Assembly: GCA_029573715.1 (NCBI GenBank)
Contig: JAKQDR010000165.1
Coordinates: 88,766 to 152,765 of the forward strand
Source of the DNA: a bacterium
Lineage (GTDB): Bacteria > Patescibacteriota > Microgenomatia > UBA1406 > GWC2-37-13
DNA length: 64,000 bases
Reading direction: 5' to 3'
This document shows positions 8,241-62,460 of the stretch, piece after piece. Every line of letters starts with the position of its first letter. The first letter of the stretch is position 1. The notes beneath the pieces were generated by a model. The model was given only the letters and a program-made list of their open reading frames with translations, was not told the origin of the DNA and did no database searches. The translations under genes and the position numbers were made by a program.

Positions 8241-8269
8241 TTGACATTTGGTGATAAATGGTGAAAAAT
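8241..8269 (+). promoter_or_regulatory. mraZ promoter
   Basis: A perfect -35 TTGACA (8241-8246), a 17-nt spacer and AAAAAT (8264-8269) predict transcription from about 8276, right at the ATG (8278). The operator repeats of the next entry overlap it. Confidence 0.55.
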
Positions 8270-8278
8270 GGATATATA
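8249..8278 (+). promoter_or_regulatory. Candidate MraZ operator: three 10-bp direct repeats
   Basis: TGGTGATAAA, TGGTGAAAAA and TGGATATATA follow each other with exact 10-bp phasing directly before the mraZ start. MraZ proteins of other bacteria bind short G-rich direct repeats (TGGGN type) spaced 10 bp apart in their own promoter. The repeats cover the region between -35 and +1, so bound MraZ would repress its own operon. This is inferred from phasing and position. Confidence 0.6.
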
Positions 8279-8727: not shown

Positions 8728-9576
8728 ATGCATACACCCGTATTTCTTGATAAGGTGCTCGCGCACGTTGACAGTAACCGTGACACACGCTATATCGATT
8801 GCACACTGGGACAAGGTGGCCACACCATTGCATTGGCAAAAATGGGCCTGCATGTCCTTGCAATCGATGCAGATCACGAACAAGTAGAACTATTCAGACG
8901 GCAACGTATATCAGAAAAAGTGCGCAGACGAATCACCATTGTGGAAGGAAACTTTCGCGATGTGGCACAGATTGCACACACTCATCATTTTGAAAACTGT
9001 GATGGAATATTGTTCGATCTTGGACTTTCGATGATACAGCTTGAACGCGAAGAAGGGTTCTCATACAGGCATCAACACCAGCCGCTGAATATGATTATTG
9101 AAACGGTTGCAAAACAAGGGGGGGCGACGAGGGCGGCTGATGTAGTTGCTCAGTATGATTCGGCAGAGCTTACCGCTGTATTTGAAAAATGGGGAGAGGT
9201 TCCTGATGCATCACGACTTGCACATTCCATTGTTACCAAACGTACCAAAGATCCCATTTTGACAGTCGGCGACTTAGCTCGTGTAGTACAAGAAACACTG
9301 GGAGAACGTCACATTCCAAAAGTATTTCAGGCACTGCGCATTGAGGTCAACAGTGAATTGTCAAATATTCAACGTGGACTTGAGGGCGCATGTGAGGTGC
9401 TTAAGCCAAACGGAATAATTCAAATTATTTCATTTCATTCAGTGGAAGACAGGGTAATCAAAATGTGGGCCAAGCATAAAGGCTTAACACCCATTGCAAA
9501 ATATGTGGGATCACGTGAAAAACGAGCGTCATTTGAGCGATCGGCGGTGTTACGCATATTACAAAAAACGTTATAA
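8728..9576 (+). CDS. rsmH: 16S rRNA (cytosine1402-N4)-methyltransferase
   Basis: RsmH (MraW) methylates N4 of C1402 in 16S rRNA, in the decoding centre, using S-adenosylmethionine. The 282-residue protein begins MHTPVFLDKVLAHV, then shows the SAM-binding region YIDCTLGQGGHTIALA (about 22-37), DGILFDLGLS (about 92-101), and the C-terminal block ISFHSVEDRVIK followed by a conserved Lys/Arg-rich end. It sits 54 nt after mraZ and is probably transcribed with it. Confidence 0.95.
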   Translation: MHTPVFLDKVLAHVDSNRDTRYIDCTLGQGGHTIALAKMGLHVLAIDADHEQVELFRRQRISEKVRRRITIVEGNFRDVAQIAHTHHFENCDGILFDLGLSMIQLEREEGFSYRHQHQPLNMIIETVAKQGGATRAADVVAQYDSAELTAVFEKWGEVPDASRLAHSIVTKRTKDPILTVGDLARVVQETLGERHIPKVFQALRIEVNSELSNIQRGLEGACEVLKPNGIIQIISFHSVEDRVIKMWAKHKGLTPIAKYVGSREKRASFERSAVLRILQKTL

Positions 9577-25117: not shown

Positions 25118-25157
25118 TTGACAAAACGCTCTCTTTCTCTGGGAAAATTCCTATAGG
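25118..25157 (+). promoter_or_regulatory. Promoter of small-protein locus 1
   Basis: TTGACA (25118-25123), a 19-nt pyrimidine-rich spacer, GAAAAT (25143-25148) and an ATAGG start (25153-25157). From the end of the spacer to ATAGG it is almost identical, with equal spacing, to the promoter at 62111-62150. It differs from other promoters here in having a consensus -35 and a real leader. Confidence 0.65.
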
Positions 25158-25162
25158 TTATA

Positions 25163-25203
25163 CTCATCTCCCTGCAGCCTTGCTGCAGAAAGAGGTGAGG
25201 TGG
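25163..25203 (+). promoter_or_regulatory. Structured leader of locus 1 covering the ribosome binding site
   Basis: CTCATCTC (25163-25170) can pair with GAGGTGAG (25192-25199), enclosing a second hairpin CTGCAG (25172-25177)/CTGCAG (25183-25188). The outer arm contains or abuts the Shine-Dalgarno GAGGTGG (25197-25203) of the first ORF, so folding would limit ribosome access. Confidence 0.5.
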
Positions 25204-25210
25204 TGACCAC

Positions 25211-25318
25211 ATGAACATTTCAGGAGCTGCCTTGGGTTTGTGCACACAGGTGCACGACGCTGGACAAGGTGTCGAAGGAGTGAGCAATGGAACCAAAACT
25301 ATGGACCATTTGGGTTAA
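25211..25318 (+). CDS. Putative 35-aa leader peptide (small locus 1, ORF a)
   Basis: A 35-residue ORF starting at ATG 25211, 7 nt after GAGGTGG. The peptide (begins MNISGAALGLCTQ) is Gly-rich and polar, with no membrane segment, and resembles nothing I know. It overlaps the following ORF by 32 nt in another frame, so its translation could control entry to the second start. A regulatory leader peptide is an alternative to a functional product. Evidence is the Shine-Dalgarno, promoter and layout only. Confidence 0.4.
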   Translation: MNISGAALGLCTQVHDAGQGVEGVSNGTKTMDHLG

Positions 25319-25451
25319 TAAGTACCCTCTCAACGCATGGCTCACGGAGCCAAGTATCGACGAAGAAGGGGTAACAACCAATGACATAGCATTCGTGATT
25401 ACGTCTGTGGATCGGGCAAAACGAGAATGTAATGCCCGACTGAAGCAGTAG
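25287..25451 (+). CDS. Small hypothetical protein, 54 aa (small locus 1, ORF b)
   Basis: A 54-residue ORF with a strong Shine-Dalgarno AAGGAG (25275-25280) spaced 6 nt from ATG 25287, rare in this window. The product begins MEPKLWTIWVNKYPLNAW and ends in a basic, helical-looking segment (VDRAKRECNARLKQ). It has no signal peptide or membrane span. It ends 7 nt before a strong terminator hairpin, and the promoter lies ~130 nt upstream, making a compact transcription unit. It has no family I recognise, and the function is unknown. Confidence 0.6.
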   Translation: MEPKLWTIWVNKYPLNAWLTEPSIDEEGVTTNDIAFVITSVDRAKRECNARLKQ

Positions 25452-25458
25452 TACATGT

Positions 25459-25486
25459 GGGCCGTCCAGCCGGCCCTCTTTCCTTT
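25459..25486 (+). terminator. Rho-independent terminator of small locus 1
   Basis: GGGCCG (25459-25464), 6-nt loop, CGGCCC (25471-25476), then TCTTTCCTTT. It ends the locus immediately after ORF b. Confidence 0.75.
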
Positions 25487-30967: not shown

Positions 30968-31040
30968 TGATCCCACGGGAATTCGAATCCCGGTTTGCAG
31001 GATGAGAACCTGCCGTCCTAGGCCTCTAGACGATGGGACC
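30968..31040 (-). tRNA. tRNA-Glu (anticodon CTC)
   Basis: A complete 73-nt cloverleaf on the minus strand: acceptor GGTCCCA/TGGGATC, D-arm with TCTAGAGGCCTAGGAC as in other tRNA-Glu genes, anticodon stem GCAGG/CCTGC with loop TTCTCAT (anticodon CTC, decoding GAG), and T-arm CGGGATTCGAATTCCCG. The discriminator base is A. The chromosome continues CCG, so the full CCA is not encoded and must be added. Confidence 0.93.
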
Positions 31041-62069: not shown

Positions 62070-62110
62070 ACCCCAAGTATACGATACTCCCTGCGCCCAC
62101 GCCCCCCCCC

Positions 62111-62150
62111 TTGACAACTCTCTCTCTCTCTCTGGGATAATTACTATAGG
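62111..62150 (+). promoter_or_regulatory. Promoter of small-protein locus 2
   Basis: TTGACA (62111-62116), a 19-nt CT-repeat spacer, GATAAT (62136-62141) and an ATAGG start (62146-62150). Spacing and sequence match the promoter at 25118-25157. It is divergent from the GT4 gene, whose start lies 42 nt to the left. Confidence 0.65.
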
Positions 62151-62164
62151 TCTTTTCCCAAATA

Positions 62165-62221
62165 CATCATCCACTCCTCCAATTGCATGGGGGAAATCAT
62201 GAGGATGATGGAAAGGAGGTG
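62165..62221 (+). promoter_or_regulatory. Structured leader of locus 2 with competing stems
   Basis: CATCATCC (62165-62172) can pair perfectly with GGATGATG (62203-62210). CCTCC (62176-62180), within the loop, is complementary to the Shine-Dalgarno GGAGG (62215-62219). The two pairings cannot easily coexist, so the leader could switch ribosome access. Confidence 0.45.
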
Positions 62222-62225
62222 AAAA

Positions 62226-62402
62226 GTGAACCTAAATCTGAGTGTTAAAGAGGCCAGAAAAGTTGTGTTTGGATGCCTACTCATGATAATCGGCACACTA
62301 ATAGCAGTATATAGTGCGCCCATGACATTGGTGGGCTTCTTCGGAGGTCTTGCCCTGGCACTCATTGGGGGTGCCATCGTCTGCATGGTTCTCTTTCCAT
62401 AG
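62226..62402 (+). CDS. Small two-helix membrane protein, 58 aa (small locus 2)
   Basis: A 58-residue ORF from GTG 62226 with the strongest Shine-Dalgarno in the window, AAGGAGG (62213-62219) spaced 6 nt. After a short polar start (NLNLSVKEARK) it is hydrophobic: one segment at about 13-31 and a Gly-rich one at about 33-57 (TLVGFFGGLALALIGGAIVC), joined by a tight turn, so a hairpin membrane protein is expected. A terminator follows 6 nt after the stop. No family is recognised; holin-like, toxin-like or regulatory membrane peptides are all possible. Confidence 0.7.
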   Translation: MNLNLSVKEARKVVFGCLLMIIGTLIAVYSAPMTLVGFFGGLALALIGGAIVCMVLFP

Positions 62403-62407
62403 CAGAC

Positions 62408-62460
62408 CCCGCCCACTGGCTGCGCACACGCGCAGACCACGTGGGCGGGCCTTCTCTTTA
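62408..62460 (+). terminator. Rho-independent terminator of small locus 2
   Basis: CCCGCCCAC (62408-62416) pairs perfectly with GTGGGCGGG (62441-62449), with an inner CTGCGC/GCGCAG stem and an ACAC loop, followed by CCTTCTCTTT. Confidence 0.85.

Follow-up and report, generated by a model that had tools for sequence, protein, structure and literature searches.

A genus-restricted family of putative sigma-70-type promoters with a variable CT repeat between the −35 and −10 boxes

Two look-alike 40-bp sites in the window, the whole 64,000-nucleotide stretch of patescibacterial DNA analysed here (G000:C247:88766-152765, from a 1.79-Mb genome in 313 contigs), belong to a genus-restricted family of five promoter-like sites that head small self-contained transcription units. 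Our preferred reading, which we consider somewhat better than an even bet, is that these are extended −10 promoters of the sigma-70 type and that slippage of a CT microsatellite tunes their strength. RNA polymerase with an ordinary sigma factor would start at a conserved CTATAGG, and the message would encode one short orphan protein before ending at a terminator hairpin. In one class of units (class B below), the leader would fold with its 5' end pairing to bases just behind the ribosome site. Slipped-strand mispairing would shift the spacer between the −35 and −10 boxes in 2-nt steps (17, 19 and 23 nt are seen), and such a change should raise or lower transcription, producing a phase-variable or tunable promoter. 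We infer from their sequences that the five sites are active promoters, that slippage occurs within populations and that CT length alters expression.

The two window sites lie at 25118-25157 and 62111-62150, both on the + strand, and are referred to here as 25k and 62k. The pattern TTGACA-N19-GAWAAT-TN-CTATAGG matches the window at these two places and none of 100 shuffles, which confirms that the pair noticed in the first-pass annotation is real and non-random. In the whole genome, only the 25k and 62k sites show the TTGACA-N19 pattern, and a reversed-pattern control gave no match. The tail CTCTGGGAWAATTNCTATAGG has one further exact copy in the genome, on contig C262, and allowing up to 3 mismatches still returns three places (25k, 62k and C262:1917). 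The genome-wide motif scan that the annotation had called for reveals three sites in 1.79 Mb. The TTGACA-to-CTATAGG gap is 27 nt at both window sites, which is why a TTGACA-N15..23-CTATAGG pattern found nothing; a consensus scanner restricted to 16-18-nt spacers missed both promoters.

Among 83 genomes of the order searched for the tail with up to 2 mismatches, additional sites (C33:9569 and C17:7564) were found solely in G043, Candidatus Woesebacteria bacterium Gw_Eff_bin_148, which is 69% complete and is the only other genome of the genus compared. The family therefore has three members in G000 and two in G043. It is absent from the other 81 genomes of the order, and an exact-match search across 84,980 species genomes turned up no member beyond the genus. 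A relaxed scan of genome contigs returned 12 stretches, with promoter context at the two G043 loci alone; the other 10, without the TTGACA/CT context, were judged to be chance matches. The relaxed pattern also matched three viral contigs. A phage origin was rejected, as the exact pattern is absent from the viral contig collection and searching with the protein of the 62k ORF likewise gave no match.

All five sites have TGn-(G/A)AWAAT-N2-CTATAGG in common. The −35 box is TTGACA in four of five and TTGATA in C33, TGn (TGG or TGT) directly precedes the −10 box in every case, and the −10 boxes are GATAAT (three times), GAAAAT and AATAAT; CTATAGG follows invariably. A TTGACA-like −35 box together with TGn directly before a TATAAT-like −10 box is the arrangement of sigma-70-type extended −10 promoters. 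In the 62k unit, sequence and pattern match place the −35 box TTGACA at 62111-62116, followed by a (CT)8 microsatellite (62118-62133) within the 19-nt spacer, the extended −10 (TGG plus GATAAT, 62133-62141) and CTATAGG (62144-62150), which would cover the transcription start expected at about 62148-62149. In the 25k unit, also on the + strand, TTGACA (25118-25123) is followed by a 19-nt pyrimidine-rich spacer (25124-25142) with an interrupted CT tract (CTCTCTTTCTCT), the extended −10 (TGG plus GAAAAT, 25140-25148) and CTATAGG (25151-25157). A reading of TAATTACTATAGG as a T7-like promoter was considered and dropped, given the −35 and −10 boxes. As a separate observation, a C9 homopolymer at 62102-62110, directly upstream of the 62k −35 box, forms a second slippage-prone tract.

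It had been proposed that the two sites share identical spacing and a conserved spacer. The first holds for the window pair but not across the family, in which the boxes are separated by 19 nt (25k), 19 nt (62k), 23 nt (C262), 17 nt (C33) and 19 nt (C17), ruling out a fixed 19-nt spacing. These differences come largely from the number of CT units, which is 8 in 62k, 10 at C262:1901-1920, 5 in C33 and 7 in C17; in 25k the tract is interrupted and therefore should be stable. The second proposal fails, as the spacer is a microsatellite that differs between orthologues. The C262 and C17 units are flanked by the same two genes, which by eye encode a GT39-like membrane protein and a GT2-like glycosyltransferase; the units are thus orthologous, with 10 versus 7 CT units and 23- versus 19-nt spacers. 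A spacer of 16-18 nt is typical of extended −10 promoters, without strictly defining them. In G000, these are the spacings at which ordinary TTGACA/TATAAT pairs in front of genes are most frequent (17, 17 and 15 matches versus about 5-7 expected) and 19-nt spacing is at background (7 versus 7.0 expected), so a 19-nt spacer is indeed off the norm, and the family as a set (17, 19, 19, 19 and 23 nt) does not keep to 16-18 nt. With 23 nt, the C262 promoter is expected to have almost no activity, barring rescue by the extended −10; this and the interrupted 25k tract count against tuning by the repeat.

Downstream of each promoter come a leader, a strong ribosome site, one ORF of 54-68 amino acids and a G+C terminator hairpin, and the units fall into two classes. 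Class B comprises 62k, C262 and C17, whose proteins of 58, 58 and 68 amino acids have two hydrophobic segments. In 62k, the predicted structured leader RNA (62148-62225, +) includes a Shine-Dalgarno sequence read as GAAAGGAGG (62211-62219, +) and precedes a 58-aa ORF with a GTG start (62226-62402, +); the protein is strongly hydrophobic, with two predicted membrane segments. Downstream lies a two-tier G+C-rich terminator-like hairpin with a T-rich tail (62408-62459, +), a form common to C262 and C17. Class A comprises 25k and C33, with soluble-looking proteins of 54 and 60 amino acids. The 25k unit has a predicted structured leader at 25155-25286, its 54-aa ORF at 25287-25451 and a terminator hairpin GGGCCG-TCCAGC-CGGCCC with a T-rich tail at 25459-25486 (all +); the loop TCCAGC recurs in the C33 unit on a different stem. 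None of the small ORFs has a convincing family match in Pfam, PHROGs or NCBIfam. The gene bodies downstream of the two window promoters had been described as unlike, and this is correct: the 25k and 62k units share a control region and not gene bodies. A duplication of the control region only, which was the consequence drawn from this, fits the comparison between classes and fails within a class, where the units also have leader and terminator in common.

The 62k unit sits between two glycosyltransferase genes, and the equivalent place in G043 holds a unit of class A and, in addition, a gene that looks SPFH-like by eye. The units thereby occupy two glycosyltransferase loci shared by both species. 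Different classes at one of these loci point to an exchange of units. The 25k unit adjoins secA, a gene that was not found in the 69%-complete G043. Since units stand at orthologous places in two species, a mobile cassette was set aside as the main reading. Beside the C262 unit we also noted a small GIY-YIG-like ORF (by eye; G000:C262, 1413-1727, − strand), which is missing at the orthologous G043 place.

The alternative that survives best, although we regard it as fairly unlikely, is that these are ordinary constitutive small genes, spread within the genus by duplication and gene conversion, with the CT tract a by-product of copying and the spacing differences either neutral or offset by the extended −10. 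The 79% identity between 62k and C262 across promoter and leader speaks for it, as does the presence of different classes at one locus in the two species, and the strong Shine-Dalgarno sequence AAAGGAGGTGAAA resembles the one preceding an HU-type gene of a different genome. Copying fails, however, to explain repeats held exactly in the spacers of G000 promoters that are unrelated to the family. CT tracts of at least 7 units are confined to the 62k and C262 promoters of class B in the whole of G000, and to the C17 promoter in G043. The 957 kb of G000 that were scanned contain five CT/GA tracts of at least 5 units in total: those of 62k and C262, one at L020:18859 (TC6) and two at L056:6208 and 6719 (GA5). 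All five lie between −35/−10-like boxes with at most 2 mismatches, the class B tracts representing one homologous promoter and so not being fully independent observations. By comparison, 0.3-1.3% of random positions fall between such boxes, a rate that would be higher for intergenic positions only, where promoter-like pairs are commoner. The L020 and L056 tracts are TC or GA repeats between different boxes, the two in L056 being neighbours, and their promoter-like sequences, too, precede short orphan ORFs with Cys residues.

These loci deserve a brief description. At L020 (G000:C248, 18839-19211, +), a promoter-like TTGCAA-17-TATAAT with the TC6 spacer heads a 98-aa Cys-containing orphan ORF and is located, by eye, between gyrB-like and rplL-like genes. 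At L056 (G000:C264, 5435-7296, − strand), small Cys-containing orphan ORFs are arranged in tandem; three of them have a GA repeat or GAGAGAG directly before the −10 box and a TATAGG that follows it immediately or overlaps it, and two of these have very short leaders. Outside the genus, (CT/GA)7-8 tracts lie in promoter-like spacers of G002, G015 and G027 (L107, L108 and L109), with spacers of 17, 19 and 21 nt, boxes 3-4 mismatches off consensus (the G002 reading, TTGATT-17-TAAACT, was made by eye, the script having chosen another −35) and an ORF start 12-16 nt downstream. On these sequence features, the three appear to be the same design in other genera. Five other genomes have (CT)≥7 tracts without promoter-spacer context.

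A second alternative, compatible with promoter tuning and in our opinion rather improbable as the main control point, places regulation in the leader, as a ligand- or temperature-sensing RNA that would open the 5'-end helix and so release translation of the small ORF, the promoter being merely strong. Three stacked helices are predicted in each of the three class B leaders separately, and the 5' strand is predicted to pair with bases just past the ribosome site. Across these helices 6 pairs are changed on both sides, versus 0-1 with the partners slid, in a model-fitted alignment of three sequences that leans towards structure, and the 3' bulge that precedes the ribosome site has a conserved AAUC. 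The class A leaders keep CTGCAGC/GCTGCAG, in 25k within a long hairpin (25163-25199, +), and GCTGGACAAGRTG, in a second hairpin at about 25226-25272 (+), and their predicted folds are better than those of shuffled sequences (z −3.1 and −3.9); covariation support for this class is thin because the leaders are few (3 class B, 2 class A). Against leader control, most of the Shine-Dalgarno sequence is predicted to be unpaired, and neither leader scores above the gathering threshold of any Rfam family. The sole Rfam hit above threshold in the window is a tRNA at 30968-31040, and permissive scans of both leaders gave chance-level matches, leading us to reject a known riboswitch. Beyond the genus, leader models of both classes gave a single match, in G063; it is due to chance and covers only the ribosome site of an HU-like gene. 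While we favor repeat-tuned promoters as the main explanation, the predicted folds suggest that the leader may control translation.

Less probable still is a dedicated regulator, as suggested in the first-pass annotation, whether an alternative sigma factor or a repressor or activator, that would read CTATAGG at the start and possibly the pyrimidine spacer. This motif is invariant in all five sites, the boxes are kept between otherwise unlike units, and two CTATAG sites 42 bp apart (window 25109 and 25151) flank the 25k promoter. Moreover, no hexamer is more over-represented in the intergenic DNA of G000 than the palindrome CTATAG (80 versus 49.6 expected, both strands counted). It is, however, often found near ordinary −10 boxes and may be merely TATAGT-like. 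The boxes themselves fit sigma-70 with an extended −10, making a dedicated sigma factor unnecessary, and a spacer-binding protein would resist the variation in spacer length that is seen. An alternative-sigma regulon would have many sites at fixed spacing; here, there are three full sites in 1.79 Mb and the spacing varies. On these patterns, a dedicated sigma factor or spacer-binding protein is disfavoured.

Repeats that alter promoter spacing have precedents. In the hifA/hifB promoter of Haemophilus influenzae, the length of a (TA)9-11 repeat has been proposed to set the −35/−10 spacing (PMC2651432). The Neisseria genes porA, fetA and opc have an unstable tract separating −10 and −35 that is believed to affect how the sigma factor binds, while in nadA a TAAA tract changes the spacing of elements, and so the level of expression, with the NadR repressor (PMC2791445). 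The present family shares with hifA/hifB a dinucleotide repeat within the promoter, but the repeat there is TA and the product fimbriae, whereas here we find CT/GA repeats in single-direction promoters, orphan small proteins and predicted structured leaders, in ultra-small environmental bacteria for which switching is only proposed. The position of the tract is that of porA, opc and fetA, although those are mononucleotide tracts of genes for surface-exposed antigens and these are dinucleotide tracts of orphan small proteins. In nadA the repeat likewise alters the spacing between elements, but it is upstream of the promoter and acts via repressor spacing, while here it is inside the core promoter. 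Bacterial small-membrane-protein genes, such as those of type I toxin messages, are known to combine a short hydrophobic protein with a folded 5' leader near the ribosome site. The likeness to class B extends to these two features; here, there are two predicted membrane segments, and no antisense RNA was identified.

It is tempting to speculate, and we do so tentatively, that this ultra-small (Patescibacteria/CPR) lineage runs a contingency system across its whole genome, holding almost every CT/GA microsatellite in a promoter spacer so as to vary the output of orphan small proteins that evolve fast, with some of the genes lying at surface-polysaccharide loci and carrying previously undescribed leader RNAs. 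If true, this would be, within the literature searched, the first such phase-variation system described in Patescibacteria/CPR. Ultra-small bacteria have reduced genomes with few regulators, which makes it of interest by what means they diversify surface-related genes and genes for host contact; a promoter tuned by a repeat would require no regulator gene and could supply such variation. Both classes of leader, like the orphan small proteins, are new candidates for study.

Elsewhere in the window, direct repeats TGGTGATAAA-TGGTGAAAAA-TGG lie at 8241-8275, about 450 bp upstream of an ORF at 8728, and we take them to resemble the operator repeats of MraZ.
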